NCBI GenBank assembly: GCA_001724985.1
Contig: MEEW01000009.1
Coordinates: 1 to 35,477 of the forward strand
Direction of reading: 5' to 3'
Length of the DNA: 35,477 bases
DNA from: Phenylobacterium sp. SCN 69-14
Lineage (GTDB): Bacteria; Pseudomonadota; Alphaproteobacteria; Caulobacterales; Caulobacteraceae
Every line of letters starts with the position of its first letter. Position 1 is the first letter of the stretch. Under the pieces are notes generated by a model. The model was not told the origin of the DNA. It saw only the letters and a list, made by a program, of their open reading frames with translations, and did no database searches. This document shows, piece after piece, positions 6,225 to 35,477 of the stretch. The translations under genes and the position numbers were made by a program.

Positions 6225-7862
6225 TCAGAGGTCGGCGGAGATCGCCGCCTCGCCCGGCCGGCGGCGCAGGGCGGCCCTGATCTCTGCGGGCGTGATGCCG
6301 CGGAAGGCGAGCAGCAGCAGGCCATAGAGCGCCCCGCCCGCCGCGACGGTGGCCAGGACCGCGATCTCCTTGGCCCCCAGGCCGACGAAATGGAACCCGC
6401 GCAGCAGCGCCTCGATCAGGGCGCGCTGGTGCGAGGCCAGACCCAGCACGGCGCCGAAGGCGATGCTGGCCGCGGCGATGCGGGCGATGCGGCTCCAGGC
6501 CGCCCTGGCGGGGGAATAGTCGCCGCGCCGGGCCAGCAGCAAAGCCATCTGGGCGACATTGATCCAGGCCGCGGCGCTGGTGGCCGCGGCGATGCCCTTG
6601 ACCCCGACCACCTGGAAGAGGGCCAGGCCCAGCACGATGTTGACCGCCACCGAGATCAGGCCGAAGCGCATCGGCGCCCTGGTGTCGGCGCGGGCGAAGA
6701 AGGCCGGCTGCAGCACGCGGGCCAGCACGAAGGCCGGCACGCCCCAGCCGTAGTTGAAGAGGATCCAGCCGGTCTCGCGCGCGTCCTGCACGGTGAAGGC
6801 GCCGCGGGTGAAGAGGCCGTCGATCAGGAAGAAGGGCATGGCCACCAGGGCCGCCGCCGCCGGGGCGGTCAGGGCCAGGGAGAAGATCACCGCCTGATCG
6901 GTGGCGGCCTGGGCGTCGTCGTGGTCGGCGGCCTGGATCGCGGCCGAGAGCCGCGGCAGCAGGGCGACGCTGACCGCCACCCCGATCAGGCCCAGCGGCA
7001 ACTGGTAGAGCCGGGCGGCGACCTCGGTCCAGGCCCGGCCGCCGGCCACCTGGGAGGCGAGGATGCCGGAGATGAAGATGTTGATCTGCACGGCGCTGGC
7101 GGCGATGGCGCCGGGAATGGCCAGGGAGACCAGGGCCTTGATCTCCGGCGTCAGCTTCGGCCAGCGCAGGCGGATGTGCGCCCCGGCCTTGCGCGCGCCC
7201 CACCAGAGGAGGCCGGCCTGCAGCACCCCGGCGATGGGGATGCCGATCGAGGCGGCCCAGGCGGCGCGCACCGGATCGGTCTGCGGGATCACCGCGGCCA
7301 GCATCACCAGGTTGAGGATGGTCGGGAAGATGCCGGTCAGGATGAAGCGCCGGTGGGCGTTCAGCACCCCCGACAGCAGGGCGCCGATGGCCATGCAGGG
7401 CAGGTAGGGCATGCTGATCTGGGTCAGCACGATGGCCAGCTTGAACTTCGCAGGGTCGGAGGCGTAGCCGGGATTGATGACGTACATCAGCCACGGCATG
7501 GCGAGCTGGGCGGCCAGGGTCAGGGCGATGGTCGCCGCCGCCAGGGTGGCCAGGGCGTCGGAGGCGATGCGGTCGGCCTGCGCTTGGCCCTCGCCGGTCA
7601 GGGTCTTGGTGTAGGCCGGGATGAAGGCCGAGGAGAAGGCGCCCTCGGCGAAGATCCGCCGGAACAGGTTCGGGAAGGCGAGCGCGGTGTAGTAGGCGTC
7701 GGCGGCGATGGTGGCGCTGGCGCCCAGGCGCGCGGTCAGCACCAGGTCGCGCGCCAGGCCCATGAACCGGCTGACCAGGGTCAGCCCCGACAGCAGCAGC
7801 GACGAGCGGATGAGGCCGCCGCCTTGCGAGGCTTTCCTGGGCGTGGGCGCGGTCTCTGTCAC
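6225..7862 (-). CDS. murJ: Lipid II flippase MurJ/MviN
   Basis: LIRSSLLLSGLTLVSRFMGLARDLVLTARLGASATADAYYTALAFPNLFRRIFAEGAFSSAFIP. Confidence 0.95.
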   Translation of the reverse strand: MTETAPTPRKASQGGGLIRSSLLLSGLTLVSRFMGLARDLVLTARLGASATIAADAYYTALAFPNLFRRIFAEGAFSSAFIPAYTKTLTGEGQAQADRIASDALATLAAATIALTLAAQLAMPWLMYVINPGYASDPAKFKLAIVLTQISMPYLPCMAIGALLSGVLNAHRRFILTGIFPTILNLVMLAAVIPQTDPVRAAWAASIGIPIAGVLQAGLLWWGARKAGAHIRLRWPKLTPEIKALVSLAIPGAIAASAVQINIFISGILASQVAGGRAWTEVAARLYQLPLGLIGVAVSVALLPRLSAAIQAADHDDAQAATDQAVIFSLALTAPAAAALVAMPFFLIDGLFTRGAFTVQDARETGWILFNYGWGVPAFVLARVLQPAFFARADTRAPMRFGLISVAVNIVLGLALFQVVGVKGIAAATSAAAWINVAQMALLLARRGDYSPARAAWSRIARIAAASIAFGAVLGLASHQRALIEALLRGFHFVGLGAKEIAVLATVAAGGALYGLLLLAFRGITPAEIRAALRRRPGEAAISADL

Positions 7863-8374: not shown

Positions 8375-9424
8375 ATGAAAAAGATCATTCTCTGCGGCGC
8401 GGCGGCCCTGGCGCTGACCGCCTGCGGCAAGACCGCGGACAAGAGCGGCGGCGAAGTCAAGGCCCCGGCGGGCGGCGCGGTTGTCCAGATCGACGGCTCA
8501 AGCACGGTGTTCCCGATTTCCGAAGCGCTCGGCGAAGAGTTTCAGAAGTCGAGCGGTACGCGGGTCACGGTCGGCCTGTCGGGCACCGGTGGTGGCTTCA
8601 AGAAGTTCTGTCGCGGCGAAACCGACATCTCGGGCGCTTCGCGACCGATCAAAAAGGAAGAGATCGAACTCTGCGCGCAAAGCGGCGTGGAATACATTGA
8701 ACTGCCGGTCGCCCTGGACGCCCTGGCGGTGATCGTAAATCCCACCAACAGCTTCGTCGACTGCCTGACCGTCGATGAACTGAAGGCGCTCTGGGCCCCC
8801 GAATCGCAAGGCAAGGTGAAAACCTGGAAACAAGTCCGCGGGAACTTCCCGGCCGAACCGGTGAGGCTGTTCGGAGCCGGCACCGACTCGGGCACGTTTG
8901 ACTATTTCACCAAGGCCATCAACGGTGAGGAAGGTGCCTCGCGCGGCGACTACACCGCCACCGAGGACGACAACGTCACCATCACCGGGGTCTCCGGCGA
9001 CAAGGACGCGCTCGGCTACCTGGGTCTCGCGTATGTGACCGAGAACGCCGGCAAGGTGAAGGCCATTCCGATCCGTCAGAAGGACGGCAAGTGCATCGTG
9101 CCCTCGGTTGGGACCGCGCGAGACGCCAGCTATCAGCCGCTGTCGCGCCCGTTGTTCTACTACGTGAACAAGAAGCACGCCGACGAACGTCCGCATCTGC
9201 GAGAGTTCATCAAGTTCGCCTTCAGCCCGGCCGAAAGCGAAAAGCTGGTCGGCGAGGTCGGTTACGTGCCGCTGCCGGCCCAGGCCTACAGCCTAGCCTT
9301 GGCGAAGTTCGACGCTCGCCGCACCGGCACCTACTTCGGCGGCGGCTCCAAGATCGGCGTCACCGTGGAGGAGCTGTTGTCGGACGCGGGCGAGGGCGCG
9401 GCCGCGGCCCCCTCCCAGAAGTAG
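8375..9424 (+). CDS. pstS: Phosphate ABC transporter substrate-binding lipoprotein PstS
   Basis: [19 protein letters not shown] (lipobox) ... [21 protein letters not shown]...[24 protein letters not shown]. Confidence 0.93.
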
Positions 9425-15094: not shown

Positions 15095-15877
15095 ATGCCT
15101 TCCGCCATCGACATCTTGCCCGATTGGGGCTGGATGGCCCTCGCCTTCGCGCTTGGGCCTGCGTTTGGCAGTTTCATCGGGCTCGTCTCGCTACGTCTCC
15201 CGGTAGGGCAGCCGATCGGAGCGGATCGGTCCGCATGCAAAGGCTGTGGTCGCCGCCTTGGGATCCTCGACCTCATCCCCATCGCAAGTTTTGTAGCGCT
15301 TGGCGGCAGGTGCCGAAGCTGCAAGGCGCCGATCGCGCGCCGATACCTGGCGCTGGAGGTGACCTGCGCGCTGCTCCCGGTCTGGGCGGGTCTTGTCCAT
15401 CCGGGTCCGGCGGCCCTGGCAGGGGCGGTTCTGGGCTGGCAGCTTGTGCTGTTGTGTTTGCTGGACGCCGAGCACCTCTGGCTCCCGCGCGCGGCGACCC
15501 TCCCGCTTGTCGCGTCTGGTGTGGCGATATCGGCGATGGCCGGCGCAGAGGCCGCAACGCATAGCCTGATCGGCGCAGCCGTGGGCTTTGCGAGCCTGGC
15601 AGTGATCGCGGCGACCTACCGACGCTTGCGGGGACGCGACGGATTGGGGGGCGGCGACGCCTACTTGCTCGCCGGCTCCGGGGCTTGGGTAGGATGGATC
15701 GGAATTCCCACGACGTTGTTGTGGGCGAGCCTTGCCGGTTTGAGCCTGGTCGTCGCCGGCCTTGTCGTCGGACGGCCGATCAGGGCCGATCAGCGTCTGC
15801 CGTTTGGAGTCTTCCTGGCCGCCGGGACCTGGCTCACCTGGCTCTATGGCCCGCTGGGCGGCGTCACCGTCGGCTAG
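15095..15877 (+). CDS. gspO: Prepilin leader peptidase/N-methyltransferase (A24)
   Basis: GPAFGSFIGLVSLRLPVGQPIGADRSACKGCGRRLGILDLIPIASFVALGGRCRSCKAPI; GGGDAYLLAGSGAWVGW. Confidence 0.9.
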   Translation: MPSAIDILPDWGWMALAFALGPAFGSFIGLVSLRLPVGQPIGADRSACKGCGRRLGILDLIPIASFVALGGRCRSCKAPIARRYLALEVTCALLPVWAGLVHPGPAALAGAVLGWQLVLLCLLDAEHLWLPRAATLPLVASGVAISAMAGAEAATHSLIGAAVGFASLAVIAATYRRLRGRDGLGGGDAYLLAGSGAWVGWIGIPTTLLWASLAGLSLVVAGLVVGRPIRADQRLPFGVFLAAGTWLTWLYGPLGGVTVG

Positions 15878-16356
15878 GGCTCGCAGGCCACCAAGCCGCC
15901 AACGGGCATCATGGTCGTCCAACCAGAGGCCGCGCGGAGCTCCAGGGTTCCTTGACGGATCATCGCGCCGCCCAGCAGACGGCGGTCCGGATCGAACTCG
16001 ACATCGAGCGTCAGAGTGATGCCGTCGCCGGCGAAGGTCTGATGCTCAGCATGGCCGTAGACCACCGCGCCCGCCTGCCCTTGACGCGAGAGCTCTCGGG
16101 TCGCGCCATTGATCTGCAGCTTGCCGACCGCAGGGTTGTTTAGGGTCATGAAGACCCGGCGGCGATCCGAAAGAGTCCAGACCGCCAGTGCGCACTGCCC
16201 TTTGGCCAGTCGTTGCGGCGGGAGTTCCTGCAAGGTCGGACCGACCTCGGGTCCCGCCTGAGAGGTGCTAGCCGGAGCGGCGATGGCCTCGTGCGGGCTC
16301 ACGAGAGCCGCGGCAGCAGCCAGCATCCCCCCGCAAGCTTGTCTAAGCTGACGCAT
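15874..16356 (-). CDS. Hypothetical exported protein at the 3' end of the gsp operon
   Basis: MRQLRQACGGMLAAAAALVSPHEAIAAPAST signal; overlaps gspN stop by 14 nt. Confidence 0.65.
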   Translation of the reverse strand: MRQLRQACGGMLAAAAALVSPHEAIAAPASTSQAGPEVGPTLQELPPQRLAKGQCALAVWTLSDRRRVFMTLNNPAVGKLQINGATRELSRQGQAGAVVYGHAEHQTFAGDGITLTLDVEFDPDRRLLGGAMIRQGTLELRAASGWTTMMPVGGLVACEP

Positions 16357-17080
16357 CGATGCCAAGCCTGCCCCGATCCACACGCAAGAAGCCCCGCATT
16401 GTCCGCTCAAACCCCGCAAGCGCCGTCAAGGCTCCGAAGCTGGGATTTGCCGCGCGCAGAAGCGTTTCGAGACGATAGCCGCCCGAAGCGTCGATCGTCA
16501 TGAGCAGATCGAAAGCGATCCCTTCGACCTGACCGCTCAACGGCGTGACGAGCAAACCTCCCTTGCATGCCGGGACGCCTGAAAGCGCCAAGCTGGGCGC
16601 AAGTTGCGCGGCGCCGGGCAGGCTGATCCGGTCGATGGTGACGCGACCTGTCGCGGCGCTGCAAGCGCCGTTGCGGAACGCCGCCGTGACCCCATCGAGA
16701 CGAAGTCGCCCTCGAACAGGCGCCCTCGACATTATGCCTTCCAACGGCAGGCTGGCGTCGAAATCGCGGACGCCGAACTCTGCGCCGGTCATCACTGCCA
16801 CTCCGCGCGCGGAAATCGGTCCCTGGGCGTCGAACCACACCCGCCCGCCGCCGAGCAGAAGCCCGGGGACATGCAGTCCCAGACGGACATCGCCGAGGCC
16901 CACGCCGCCAAGACGCGCACCCTGCAGCTCCCCCCGCCAGATCGTGCCCGACACCGCGCGGGCTCCGAGTCCCTGGCGCTCGACGCTCTTCATCTTCAGT
17001 CCCAGTTGCAGGGGCGCGAGCCCAACGAGCAGCACCAGCAAGGCGACGGCGAAGATTTGCACCAGGCGCAGGCCGCTCAT
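16343..17080 (-). CDS. gspN: Type II secretion system protein N
   Basis: MSGLRLVQIFAVALLVLLVGLAPLQLGLKMKSVERQGLGARAVSGTIWRGELQGARLGGVGLGDV...; position after gspM. Confidence 0.85.
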   Translation of the reverse strand: MSGLRLVQIFAVALLVLLVGLAPLQLGLKMKSVERQGLGARAVSGTIWRGELQGARLGGVGLGDVRLGLHVPGLLLGGGRVWFDAQGPISARGVAVMTGAEFGVRDFDASLPLEGIMSRAPVRGRLRLDGVTAAFRNGACSAATGRVTIDRISLPGAAQLAPSLALSGVPACKGGLLVTPLSGQVEGIAFDLLMTIDASGGYRLETLLRAANPSFGALTALAGFERTMRGFLRVDRGRLGIDASA

Positions 17081-17550
17081 GAGCCCGCCCGGACCAGGGT
17101 GGCGTCGAGAGTAAGGCCGCCGGTTTCGTTCTTGACGATGGTGATATGGCTCGCCACGACGCCATGCTCGCGCTGCAGCAGGCTCAACCACGGGAACAGC
17201 ACGGTCGGCGCGACGGAGGGCGCCGAGACCCTGATGCCGCTCGAAGGGTCGTCCTCCACCCGACCGAGGGCGATACCCGCCGCGGCGGCCGTGGTGTTGA
17301 CTGCAGCGTCGAGCGGCAGGCGCCGCGCCGATGACTTCGGCGGAGCTCTCAGGCGACCGATCGCCGCGACGTTGCGGGCGACCTCGGCCTGAGTCTGCTG
17401 GGCTGCGGCGTAGCGCGCGGACGCAGCCCCGGCGGCGGCCTGGAGCGGCCGCGCGACACCGAACACGATCAGCGTCAGCACGACGCACAACGCCATAACC
17501 CCGAGCAACACCTGCTCGCGGCCGGAACGGCTGATCCACCAAGCTCTCAT
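17077..17550 (-). CDS. gspM: Type II secretion system protein M
   Basis: Short bitopic protein MRAWWISRSGREQVLLGVMALCVVLTLIVFGVARPL; between gspL and gspN. Confidence 0.85.
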   Translation of the reverse strand: MRAWWISRSGREQVLLGVMALCVVLTLIVFGVARPLQAAAGAASARYAAAQQTQAEVARNVAAIGRLRAPPKSSARRLPLDAAVNTTAAAAGIALGRVEDDPSSGIRVSAPSVAPTVLFPWLSLLQREHGVVASHITIVKNETGGLTLDATLVRAGS

Positions 17551-18662
17551 GAGCGTGCCCCCAAGATCACGTCGCTCACGATCCGAGCGCCCTCCTCCTG
17601 CGTCGCCTCTTCACGCGCGGTGACGCCCGCCGAACCCATCGCTTCGCGAAAGAGTTCGACATCCGAAATCTGGCCGTAGCTGATCCGCGCCCGAACTGAG
17701 CCGTCAGGCGACAGGACAAGGCCTTCCAGCTGGGAATCGCCGATGCCTTCGAGGGCGGTGAATAGGGCCGCGATGAGCGCCGTCGGTCCGCCGCCCGCGG
17801 CGAGCTGGAGATCGTGAAGGCGCGTGCGGGTCTGGGCGGCTGGATCAACGATGGCCTGCCCCTGGGGCAGGACGGCGGCGGCCGCCCGCGTCGCCTGCCG
17901 CTCCAATGACACGGCCGCCATGTGGTCGCGCAAGACCTGGGCGCCGAACAGTATCGGGATGCTGAGAGCCAGCGCACCGCCAAGCATCGCCGCGCGCTTG
18001 AGGTTCAGCCAGTCGAGCCGACTTTCGCGACCAAGATCGAATTCCCCCTGCAGGAGGTTGATCACCGGGTCGGCCGCCGCCGTCGCCAGCGCGCCTTCAA
18101 CGGCCTCGGCCCCATCGATCATCTCGATTTCGCGCCCTTGCAGGACGAGAGCGGCGAGATCCGGCTCCAGCGTCAGCGCCAGGCGACGCCCCCGAACGGC
18201 CATGACGCCGCCAAGGAACGCGCCGACCAGGCGCTCTTCGGGTGGCGCCGGCAACATGAGATGGTCTGGCAGCACCACGTCGGGAAACACGCCATGCAGC
18301 GCCGCGCCCGCAAGCCAGCCCTGCAGCAGGCGGCGCGCCGTCACCACGACAAGACGATAGCCATCGTCCTCTAAAGGGCCGATGGCGACATGGAGATCTT
18401 CCTCGGCGAGCGCCAGCTGATCGGCGAGGTGAAGGCGAGCCGCGGCCAGGGCCTGGGCGTGGCTGCGGGTAGGCAAATGCACCCAGCGGGCGCTCACCTC
18501 GGCGCCCGGCACGACGAGTACTTCCCGCAGCGGCTCGGACGGCCGAGCGACGCCGATGGGCGCCTCGCCACGGGCCGCCACTGCGCCAGCGAGATCCACA
18601 ATCAGATAGTGTGGTGCGGCGTCTGGCGTTCGAGGCGCCAGGACGATCCGGGTTCGGGTCAT
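17547..18662 (-). CDS. gspL: Type II secretion system protein L
   Basis: MTRTRIVLAPRTPDAAPHYLIVDL...VINLLQGEFDLGRESRLDWLNLKRAAML; canonical GspL layout. Confidence 0.87.
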   Translation of the reverse strand: MTRTRIVLAPRTPDAAPHYLIVDLAGAVAARGEAPIGVARPSEPLREVLVVPGAEVSARWVHLPTRSHAQALAAARLHLADQLALAEEDLHVAIGPLEDDGYRLVVVTARRLLQGWLAGAALHGVFPDVVLPDHLMLPAPPEERLVGAFLGGVMAVRGRRLALTLEPDLAALVLQGREIEMIDGAEAVEGALATAAADPVINLLQGEFDLGRESRLDWLNLKRAAMLGGALALSIPILFGAQVLRDHMAAVSLERQATRAAAAVLPQGQAIVDPAAQTRTRLHDLQLAAGGGPTALIAALFTALEGIGDSQLEGLVLSPDGSVRARISYGQISDVELFREAMGSAGVTAREEATQEEGARIVSDVILGARS

Positions 18663-31758: not shown

Positions 31759-32363
31759 CCAACCGCCCGGCACCGCTTGGAGCACAGACTCCGAACAGCG
31801 GTCATGCGACGCGGCCAACGCCGTGGCCCAATCGACAAGTTCAAGAATTCTAACGCCTGCTACAACTCCAAAGCTGCGCGCCTGTCGGGCGGGTATGAGT
31901 TCGCCTCGTTGTGGACCGCTGCCCGCCGCAAACCGGGAGTGGCCGGCGCTCGCGCGACCCGCGCGCGATGTAGCCAAGCACGCCAGCGGCGGGAGTCGTC
32001 AAGCGCAGCGAAGCCTCTCCCGCACGCGGCGTGAGGCGCCCGCCGAGGAGCCGATCACAATATTGTTTTTCAGCGAGTTCGGGGGCCGCCAACGGCCGCG
32101 GCGCGCTTTGACGCGTGGCGAAACGGCCCGAGGGCGGGTGAGACGACCGCCATGCTTAGAGTCTGGAATCTTTAGGAGCTAATAGTATTAGAAATAGCAA
32201 AATTCATAACAATTCGTGCTGCAGTATGTATAATTCTTCATTCAGATTAATGAACATCGCGGCCAATTTTTCGGCGTTTGGATTCCCGTTTTGTTCGAAT
32301 ACTTAACCTTACTCGCGATTGGCGAGCCGCCGCCCCAGACGGGCGTCATGAAAAAGGTTCTGT

Positions 32364-32552
32364 ATGAGCTCCACGAAGTTCCAGCTGCTGTCCTGGCGAA
32401 AACTGCAGCCTATGATCAGCGTCTCGCGCACCACCTGGTGGCGCATGATCCAGGCCGGCTCTGCGCCGCGCCCTATTCAAGTCTCGCCCGGCCGGGTCGC
32501 CTGGCTGGAGGCCGATGTGATCGCGTGGCTTGAGGCGCGACGACCAGCCTAG
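32364..32552 (+). CDS. AlpA-like / MerR-HTH_17-like DNA-binding protein
   Basis: MSSTKFQLLSWRKLQPMISVSRTTWWRMIQAGSAPRPIQVSPGRVAWLEADVIAWLEARRPA, typical AlpA/excisionase pattern. Confidence 0.65.
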   Translation: MSSTKFQLLSWRKLQPMISVSRTTWWRMIQAGSAPRPIQVSPGRVAWLEADVIAWLEARRPA

Positions 32553-32635
32553 CAATGAAGCGCTAGCGGTGAGCGGGAGGAGCCCGGCCACCGCAGCGCC
32601 CTGATCTTGGGCCGACGTGCGCGCGCCCCAGCGAT

Positions 32636-32823
32636 GTCCCCTCGCCGTCCCCTAATTGTCCCCTGGACGTCCCCTTTTTGTCCCCGACCGGGGTCTTGAG
32701 AGTCCGAATTGTCCCCTTTGTGTCCCCTCGCTGTCCCCTCGCCTCCGGCTTGCACCCTTGGCGTACTCGCGTTGGCGCCTGGATGTACTCTGGAAGTACC
32801 CGCGGCGTACTCGCGACGTACTC
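32636..32823 (+). repeat. Phased direct-repeat array: GTCCCC set then GTACTC set, 11-bp period
   Basis: GTCCCC at 32636, 32647, 32658, 32669, 32680, 32711, 32722, 32733; GTACTC/GTACCC at 32763, 32785, 32796, 32807, 32818 (degenerate GCACCC 32752, GGCGCC 32774). Confidence 0.9.
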
Positions 32824-32910
32824 CCGCTCAGGTTCATAGGACTGAGCGCCTCCCAGCCCTGCCCTGCGCACTGAATTGCCTGAGAATATCGCCCCCCTGC
32901 GCCCTTAAGG

Positions 32911-32945
32911 CGCTGATACACCATACGCACCTCGCGGGTGCACGC
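32911..32945 (-). promoter_or_regulatory. oriT: Candidate MobF-type oriT nic region (hairpin + nic)
   Basis: Minus strand GTGCACC-CGCGA-GGTGCGTATGGTGT/ATCAGCG; strong resemblance to R388 GCGCACCGAAAGGTGCGTATTGTCT/ATAG (recalled); predicted nic between 32918 and 32917. Confidence 0.65.
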
Positions 32946-33074
32946 AGCCAATTGAATTTACACATCTTTTCAGTCCGCCCCGAAGGGCGTCGCACTACGG
33001 CACAGTCTACGCGTCGCCAGCAAAGCCAAGCCCGATAAGGGCCTACCGCACTACCAGCAGCATTCCCGGAGCCC

Positions 33075-33431
33075 ATGCGTTTCTCAGACCCCATTCAACT
33101 CCGCCTTGAGCCTCAAAAGCGCAACGAACTCGAAGCGATTGCGGCCTCGCGCGGCATCCCGCTCTCCGAACTCATTCGAGAACGACTAGACCAAATGGCG
33201 ACCACCCTCGCCTCGATCACGAGCCTGCGGCTCGCTTTGGCCGTCGATGAGAAGCGTGCGCCTCAACCCGAAAAGCCGCCTGAGGCCTTTCCCGTCGAGA
33301 TCGAAGCGATGCTCGCCGAAATCCTGCTCACGCTGAGAGAGACCACCCCTGATGCTAAGCGCCGATATGTTCAGCTGCAGCTAAGGCAAATGTCTCTGCC
33401 GACCTGGAGTGACGCTCCCCGTCGGCGCTAG
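33075..33431 (+). CDS. TrwA-like RHH relaxosome accessory protein
   Basis: MRFSDPIQLRLEPQKRNELEAIAASRGIPLSELIRERLDQ resembles the R388 TrwA N-terminus; immediately upstream of the TrwC-like gene. Confidence 0.72.
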   Translation: MRFSDPIQLRLEPQKRNELEAIAASRGIPLSELIRERLDQMATTLASITSLRLALAVDEKRAPQPEKPPEAFPVEIEAMLAEILLTLRETTPDAKRRYVQLQLRQMSLPTWSDAPRRR

Positions 33432-33437
33432 CACACG

Positions 33438-35315
33438 GTGCTCAGCCACCAGATCCTCACGCGGCAGGATGTCGGCGACGTCGCCAGCTACTATGGCGAC
33501 GGCGCGGACGACTACTATGCAAAGGAAGGCGAGGCGCAGACCTGGCAGGGCCGAGGCGCTGAAATGCTCGGCCTTGTCGGCTCCGTGGACAGTCGGCGGT
33601 TCAGGGAGCTGCTAGCGGGCAAAATTGATCCGGACGGCGCACCGGTCCGGTCCTCCACTCGCGACGACAGCAAGTCGCGCATCGGCATCGATCTGACGTT
33701 CTCTGCGCCCAAGGGCGGTTTGGCCGAGGCCGAGGCGCAGTCGCGGCTCCAGGCAGACGCCGCCTCCGGCCGCCTTGTCATGGTGGAGGCGCGTTACACG
33801 ACGCCGGAGGCCCTGGCGAGGGAGCACGAAATCCTGCGGATCGAACGAGACGGCCGTAGCGCCTTAGCACCAGTGCTTTCGCTGCCGGACGCCGTCGCAC
33901 ACTTCGCTGACCGGCCATTGAACAATGGACAGCGATCGGCTGCCACGATGATGCTCTCCTCCAGCAACCGCGTGGTCGGGATCGAAGGGTTCGCCGGCAC
34001 CGGCAAAAGCCACATGCTTCGCTTCGCCACCGAAAAGATCGAGGCGCAGGGATACACGGTACGGGCGCTTGCCCCCTACGCCGGACAGGTCAAGGCGTTG
34101 CGCGGCCTTGGGGTCACCGCCAATACTGTGGCCTCCTTCCTCCGCGCGAGGGAACAACCGCTTGGACCAAAGAGCGTCCTGGTGATCGATGAGGCCGGGG
34201 TCGTGCCCGCCCGCCAGATGGCCAAGCTGCTGCAAACAGCCGAAAGCGCGGGAGCGCGCATCGTGCTCATCGGCGATCGCGCTCAGACGAAGGCGATCGA
34301 GGCCGGCCGTCCCTTCGACCAGCTGATCCGCAACGGCATGACAACGACCGAGATGGCGGAGATCCAGCGGCAGACCGACCCGAGGCTCCGGGAGGCGGTC
34401 GAGCTCGCCGCAAGGGGCCGTGCTGCGCCCTCGCTGGCGAAGGTCCGCAACATCGTGGAGTTGGAGGACGATACGGACCGGCGAACTGCAATCGCGCAGT
34501 CCTACGCCGAGCTGACGAAGTGGGATCGAGAGCGAACTCTGATCGTCGCCGGTACCAATGAAGCACGGCGAGAAATCAATGCCTTGGTGCGCGAGGCGAT
34601 CGGCACTGCCGGCGAAGGCAAGCAGGCGTCCTTTCTCGTCCGTCGGGACACCACCCAGGAGCAGCGTCGGTACTCGCGTAACTACGATGTCGGCGACACG
34701 ATCCAGCCGGAGCGTGACTACCCATCTGCAGGGCTCGTTCGAGGAGCCCTCTACACGGTTGAAGAAAATGGCCCCGGCAATCGATTGACCGTTCGGGCTC
34801 AGGACGGTGCAGCCGTCGAATTCAGCCCGTACAAATGCAGCAACCTCTCGGTCTACCAGACCGAACGCGCAGAGCTCTCAAGGGGCGATCTGGTCCGCGT
34901 GACCCGCAATGACGCGGCCCTCGACCTCGCAAACGGCGATCGGCTCCGGGTGGCCTTTCAAGTTCGCTCCACCGTCGTCCTCACCGATGGTGTTCGCACC
35001 ATCCATATGGACGCGAGCCGCCCCCTGCACCTAGACCACGCATATGCGACCACCGTGCACAGCAGTCAGGGCCTGACCACCGATCGCGTCTTCATCGAAG
35101 CGACCACGACCAGCCGAACGACCGCCAAGGACGTCTACTACGTTGCGATCTCACGAGCCCGCAGCGAGGCCCGCATCTTCACCAACGACCGCGAAGCCCT
35201 GGGCAACGCGATCAGCCGCGAGAACCCGAAGATCGCCGCAATGGACCTGACGACACCAAAACGGGCGCTGGATCGCGCGAAACGCGTGGAAGAGCTGGGT
35301 GATCGAGAGCGGTAA
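33438..35315 (+). CDS. MobF/TrwC-like protein with relaxase core deleted; helicase domain intact
   Basis: GTG start: (M)LSHQILTRQDVGDVASYYGDGADDYYAKEGEAQTWQGRGAEMLGL...RIGIDLTFSAPKG, then directly the post-relaxase linker and SF1 helicase (GFAGTGKSHML, VLVIDEAG, HAYATTVHSSQGLT). 625 aa. Confidence 0.88.
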   Translation: MLSHQILTRQDVGDVASYYGDGADDYYAKEGEAQTWQGRGAEMLGLVGSVDSRRFRELLAGKIDPDGAPVRSSTRDDSKSRIGIDLTFSAPKGGLAEAEAQSRLQADAASGRLVMVEARYTTPEALAREHEILRIERDGRSALAPVLSLPDAVAHFADRPLNNGQRSAATMMLSSSNRVVGIEGFAGTGKSHMLRFATEKIEAQGYTVRALAPYAGQVKALRGLGVTANTVASFLRAREQPLGPKSVLVIDEAGVVPARQMAKLLQTAESAGARIVLIGDRAQTKAIEAGRPFDQLIRNGMTTTEMAEIQRQTDPRLREAVELAARGRAAPSLAKVRNIVELEDDTDRRTAIAQSYAELTKWDRERTLIVAGTNEARREINALVREAIGTAGEGKQASFLVRRDTTQEQRRYSRNYDVGDTIQPERDYPSAGLVRGALYTVEENGPGNRLTVRAQDGAAVEFSPYKCSNLSVYQTERAELSRGDLVRVTRNDAALDLANGDRLRVAFQVRSTVVLTDGVRTIHMDASRPLHLDHAYATTVHSSQGLTTDRVFIEATTTSRTTAKDVYYVAISRARSEARIFTNDREALGNAISRENPKIAAMDLTTPKRALDRAKRVEELGDRER

Positions 35316-35477
35316 CGCTCTTTCACGTCCGACTGCGCCAGTACGACCGAAAAGGGCTCTAAGCGGTTCATCCGTATGTCCGCTGCCAGACATCAAGGGG
35401 GGCTCCGCGGCAATGACCGCGTTGGGCTCGTTGCTGACGATCGGGACGTCCGCTTTGGGGCATTGAGCTCACTCTCG

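Follow-up and report, generated by a model that had tools for sequence, protein, structure and literature searches.

A truncated TrwC-type relaxase gene, probably inactivated recently, in a small mobilisation module on the Phenylobacterium chromosome

The stretch of DNA analysed here, referred to as the window, is a whole contig (C9; 35,477 nucleotides) of a draft genome of Phenylobacterium comprising 245 contigs and 77% complete. Close to its end we found a small module with the order alpA, 11-bp phased repeats, an R388-like oriT, trwA, and trwC, the last of which stops 162 bases before the end of the contig. The upstream gene (32364-32552, + strand) encodes an AlpA-like HTH protein of 62 aa that matches the Pfam model Phage_AlpA at 6e-5. 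The trwA gene (33075-33431, + strand) is intact and encodes a TrwA-like oriT accessory protein of 118 aa, with 35% identity to the annotated TrwA of KC170278 (tblastn, 1e-4).

The trwC gene (33438-35315, + strand) has a GTG start and 625 codons and, as an earlier note made from the sequence alone had stated, remains open to its stop. It encodes a relaxase stub, a linker remnant, and an SF1 helicase. The stub (33438-33713, + strand) corresponds to TrwC residues 1-92 and retains two segments that the note had described as intact, YYGDGADDYY at residues 18-27, which carries the catalytic-tyrosine motif (Tyr18/Tyr26), and LTFSAPK at residue 86. The Pfam TrwC model is matched on residues 13-93 only, covering profile positions 2-85 of 286. 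A jump in the sequence had been noticed at about 33711-33725. We placed the deletion junction at codons 93-94 (33714-33719, + strand, GGC GGT), where identity to the nearest relative ends at 33717 and resumes at 33905. The junction is followed by the linker remnant (33720-33917, + strand), which aligns with the linker of full-length TrwC proteins and is missing in the nearest relative, and then by a helicase domain of the RecD2/TraI type (33918-35312, + strand). AAA_30 (3e-46) and further models of SF1 helicases match the protein from around residue 161 onwards. The helicase motifs Q (LNNGQ, at 161), I, II, III, IV, V, and VI are all present, in agreement with the earlier reading, and the protein thus has the C-terminal SF1 helicase of a MobF relaxase.

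The HUH fold with three metal-binding histidines, which also belongs to a MobF relaxase, is lacking. The 625-aa protein contains no H-x-H motif and its eight histidines are scattered, as expected from the reported absence of the three-His motif. The motif being located elsewhere was rejected, as searches of both the ORF and the genome did not find it. The gene's own assembly yielded neither a second TrwC nor a separate HUH fragment, either of which could be missed in a draft that is 77% complete. Full-length relatives (~60% identity) have some 309-315 extra residues between query residues 92 and 94. The window gene therefore lacks about 310 codons, which comprise the HUH core together with most of the linker, and the earlier claim that the HUH core was lost by an in-frame deletion was confirmed. 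Following the proposal of the note, we looked for the same junction in other genomes, about 500 from the genus and the order, and found it in none of them; the truncated form is carried by one genome only.

Between alpA and trwA, we identified an R388-like oriT (32912-32945, - strand) by comparison with the oriT of R388. It consists of a hairpin (GCACC...GGTGC) and a nic-like GGTGCGTATGGTGT/ATCAGC, corresponding to GGTGCGTATTGTCT/ATAGCC at the nic core of R388. Read on the bottom strand, the window has GCACC-CGCGA-GGTGCGTATGGTGT/ATCAGC where R388 has GCACCGAAAGGTGCGTATTGTCT/ATAGCC, and the predicted nic lies on this strand between 32917 and 32918. The oriT-like site that had been suspected next to trwC is thus present, and the gene adjoins a cognate oriT with nic and hairpin in the manner of MobF relaxase genes. 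Over the 34-base oriT core, the window and its nearest relative differ by one base. Similar oriT-like sites were found in L025 and L008. No R388-like nic was found in the 117-bp alpA-trwA interval of L081 (L081:11121-11238) or in the equivalent intervals of L082, L083, and L084; judging from these intervals, the oriT of this subgroup must be located elsewhere or differ in sequence.

The region between alpA and oriT is occupied by 11-bp phased direct repeats (32635-32823, neither strand assigned) detected with TRF and by autocorrelation, with the unit TGTCCCCTCGC followed by GTACTCGCGAC. The autocorrelation at 11 bp was 0.436, against a shuffle 95% value of 0.33. Short direct-repeat arrays were also observed at this place in L002:609-715, L025:2428-2741, and L008:5197-5269. 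The period is mostly 11 bp, with 21-22 bp in some arrays. The unit is wholly different between close relatives, the array of the nearest relative being built on CTTGTCTCCTC, while the period is the same in this relative and the window. At the same place, R388 has the stbDRs, to which StbA binds and in which repeats of 9 bp are separated by 2 bp (PMC3098194), and the AlpA-like protein stands in the window where R388 has StbA.

The comparison with R388 extends to the whole module. The window protein is homologous to TrwC of R388 (a MobF relaxase-helicase; 1OMH, NC_028464) in the N-terminal residues 1-92, the linker, and the SF1 helicase, the nic regions are alike, and trwA lies upstream in both. 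However, the window gene has lost the HUH core and the three histidines, the setting is chromosomal, a T4SS is lacking, and there is no counterpart of the trwB gene that R388 has between trwA and trwC.

The loci that match the window most closely are in Phenylobacterium genomes. The order alpA-trwA-trwC was shared by eight distinct loci (the window, L002, L025/G057, L008/G110, G055, G046, G018, and G125), L008 and L085 being one record and counted once. All eight carry a homologue of alpA at the same position and a homologue of trwA, and in none is trwB located between trwA and trwC. Six of the eight (L025/G057, L008/G110, G055, G046, G018, and G125) encode a full-length TrwC of 943-951 aa with 52-55% identity to the window helicase. 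These loci resemble the window in gene order, in the lack of an intervening trwB, and in the lack of a T4SS hit on the contig, but differ from it in the full-length TrwC. Neither VirB4 nor TrwB-type proteins were detected in the window's own assembly, where the 77% completeness means that a T4SS could be missed, nor were TrwB or VirB4 found on the module-bearing contigs of seven related genomes. In G055, a genome given as 100% complete, trwC is intact and neither TrwB nor VirB4 was found anywhere.

We also analyzed the surroundings of the module. Similarity between the window and its nearest relative starts at window position 32269 and stops at 35359, and the flanking DNA is unrelated, which indicates that the module occupies different surroundings in the two genomes. 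No integrase was seen from the module to the contig end or elsewhere in the window, no direct repeats of at least 9 bp flank the module in the window or L002, a search for a tRNA at the module site gave none, and none of the viral contigs searched matched the locus. Tyrosine recombinases were observed near the module in L081-L084. Some full-length loci were found to be adjoined by such recombinases together with copper-resistance genes encoding CopB, a P-type ATPase, and Cus-type efflux (L081:1-5000 and 16940-17590; L084:8257-14242 and 15804-17558), a neighbourhood resembling metal-resistance islands. L081 additionally contains a 105-bp direct repeat (6922-7026 and 8534-8638, 91% identical), one copy of which ends an alpha/beta hydrolase gene; this repeat is possibly the trace of an integration event.

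The nearest relative of the module is in JAGOQB010000021.1 (L002, equal to G053:C4), from the Phenylobacterium metagenome-assembled genome Gw_Bodden_bin_98. Its helicase is 94% identical to that of the window, and the DNA identity is 86% over 32269-32599, 93% over 32885-33717, and 89% over 33905-35359. This sister locus has the same module, and its trwC is also broken, in a different way. A 317-aa ORF encodes a complete nickase, including HETTRAQDPELHTHS, that matches TrwC 1-293 at 4e-110. Loss of the linker shifted the frame after ALTGL, and the ORF consequently stops at a TGA just where the helicase reading frame takes over. The helicase forms a separate ORF from an ATG at L002:2330, downstream of the Q motif LNNGQ. 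The linker segment missing from the sister is present in the window, and the HUH core missing from the window is present in the sister; both parts must therefore have existed in the common ancestor, and the lesions are independent. By this comparison of sequences, trwC was broken twice, once in each of the two close relatives. The linker may already have been shorter in the common ancestor. The last residues of the sister nickase, EAVAEALTGL, align either at the beginning of the linker or immediately before GLAEAEAQ of the window. Under the second alignment, the two lesions would complement each other exactly, and two 12-bp copies of CGCTGACCGGCC would flank the sister deletion; each genome shows only one of these copies.

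These observations bear on whether the missing segment was dropped, or a chimera made, during metagenome assembly. The genome is a draft of the quality given above and the contig ends 162 bases past the gene, as might be expected of such an error. However, no repeat longer than 9 bp was found near the break, so that an assembler would have had no k-mer overlap to collapse on, and collapse of a repeat was rejected for this reason. The reading frame is kept across the junction, the assembly contains no full-length copy elsewhere, and the sister gene is broken too, at a different break. The sequences before (93%) and after (89%) the junction have their match in one and the same sister gene, and a chimera of two TrwC genes was rejected on these grounds. 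We therefore regard an assembly artefact as improbable.

Synonymous divergence from the sister was observed to be 0.11-0.20 over 33075-33719 (trwA and the first 92 codons) and 0.42 over 33905-35315 (the helicase). This step at the junction could result from recombination or constraint. The intact pair L008/L025 shows the same tendency, with 0.38 in the first 92 codons against 0.53-0.94 in other windows, whereas L081/L082 shows the opposite, so the step is no evidence of a chimera.

To further characterize the truncated product, we used structure prediction together with alignment to TrwC and TraI, as the earlier note had suggested. In the AF2 model of the 625-aa protein, pLDDT was mostly 24-49 over residues 1-121, whereas residues 123-603, the helicase, were modelled with high confidence; the stub is thus unfolded in the model and the helicase folds well. 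The best Foldseek matches of the helicase in the PDB were TraI (5n8o, 3e-26) and RecD2 (3gpl, 4e-22). TrwC of R388 (1omh) matches residues 1-116 and the matches to the TraI helicase begin at residue 127. As a control, the intact nickase domain of the sister was modelled with a similar number of sequences. It gave strands at 2-8, 34-37, and 81-89 in the same 92 residues, with a mean block pLDDT of 51-93. In these models, the stub appears to depend on the deleted part for folding.

The helicase part also resembles the TraI translocation-signal domain 4l0j (TMt 0.75). This likeness is consistent with a helicase fragment that interferes with transfer, acting as a dominant-negative competitor of incoming TrwC elements via a T4SS recruitment surface. 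Such a role is reached purely by inference, our searches brought up no conserved family of proteins truncated in this way, and we consider it very improbable.

We then determined dN/dS for what remains of the ORF, another check raised by the note. Between the window and the sister, it was 0.066 in the helicase (NG86; bootstrap 95% 0.044-0.095), 0.17 in the first 92 codons (NG86; wide interval of 0.05-0.44), and 0.26 in trwA. The helicase value is lower than in closely related intact pairs, which gave 0.12-0.25 at dS values of no more than 0.75. When amino-acid changes were polarised with 11 outgroup sequences, 7 derived ones fell to the window and 11 to the sister, and neither copy shows a sign of relaxed selection. 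The gene resembles a pseudogene in having lost an essential part, the roughly 310 codons with the HUH core, but not in the usual decay, as the ORF is open and free of stops, frameshifts, and excess changes. Since the window and sister copies share an unbroken ancestor, most of the dN/dS record may have been written before the deletions. Either the lesions are young relative to the divergence or selection still acts on the helicase. The stub shows no greater decay despite having been cut off from the remainder of its fold; this favours a young deletion, although the interval for the stub is wide.

The alternative is that the truncated protein was kept as a stand-alone SF1 helicase, perhaps one that assists TrwA near oriT or takes part in DNA repair of the host, and that both sister lineages uncoupled the nickase from the helicase under selection. 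The low helicase dN/dS, the intact set of motifs, and a helicase frame that is open in both broken copies agree with this. However, the sister frame has no start before the ATG at L002:2330, past the Q motif, and any helicase made from that copy would lack this motif; the absence of decay extends equally to the functionless stub and to trwA, as a young deletion would explain; and the truncated form was found in a single genome. We therefore consider retention as a helicase unlikely. That a MobF gene turned into a selected stand-alone helicase specifically at a chromosomal oriT, with the same uncoupling reached independently in the sister by another deletion, is decidedly unlikely.

We favour, with a probability of about 0.75, the reading that a MobF relaxase gene of the TrwC type, part of a small module for mobilisation in the Phenylobacterium chromosome, was inactivated recently. 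A single in-frame deletion took the HUH core along with most of the linker and left the oriT, trwA, and the helicase part intact. Two points argue against a relic: the deletion is in frame, for which the chance is 1 in 3, and conservation of the helicase is no lower than in intact genes, as would also be predicted if a function had been retained. Of the two fates offered by the earlier note, the fresh relic is the better supported, by the different lesion in the sister, the lack of decay, and the stub that is unfolded in the model, and repurposing gained no positive support. A helicase acting on the adjacent oriT is accordingly considered unlikely. TrwC N293 alone performs sequence-specific nicking and strand transfer (PMC6049929). 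Because oriT nicking resides in the HUH domain, which is mostly deleted, the 625-aa protein is not expected to recognise oriT alone and should be unable to cleave it, although its helicase activity may persist. The protein, if made, would consist of an SF1 helicase preceded by an unfolded tail, and it could neither nick nor attach to oriT; the element would therefore be unable to start its own transfer. An element with its own relaxase would thereby become an oriT-only element, movable only if a related TrwC nicks its oriT in trans. As oriT and trwA are intact, such nicking could in principle occur, and the module is perhaps mobilisable in trans.

Helper-dependent integrated elements have been classified as iMOB and iOriT, having an oriT with or without a relaxase, and gene loss has been named as a source (PMC11389934). 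In the window, an oriT is present and the relaxase core absent, and the module may belong to the iOriT class if a helper mobilises it. We dropped a statement from a 2017 review that no MobF IME had been described (PMC5704250), since IMEs with MOBF relaxases are known in Mesorhizobium (PMC8627217). These are integrated and helper-dependent, as the module in the window would be, but are mostly of the Ti type with traACD, whereas the window has a freshly broken relaxase of the R388 type. The setting of an integrative mobilisable element is thus not a new kind, and in the literature that we covered, the R388-type module without trwB seems less described.

The locus also calls for caution in annotation, as the helicase part together with a short TrwC match could lead to the gene being called a relaxase. 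Elements with only an oriT are thought to arise from mobilisable ones by loss of the relaxase, but this step has rarely been observed. In the present case, the joined relaxase-helicase has just been lost in both of two close relatives, by different deletions and with the rest of the module intact. As full-length related relaxases are found in the same genus, it can be asked whether an element reduced to its oriT is still mobile immediately after losing its relaxase.
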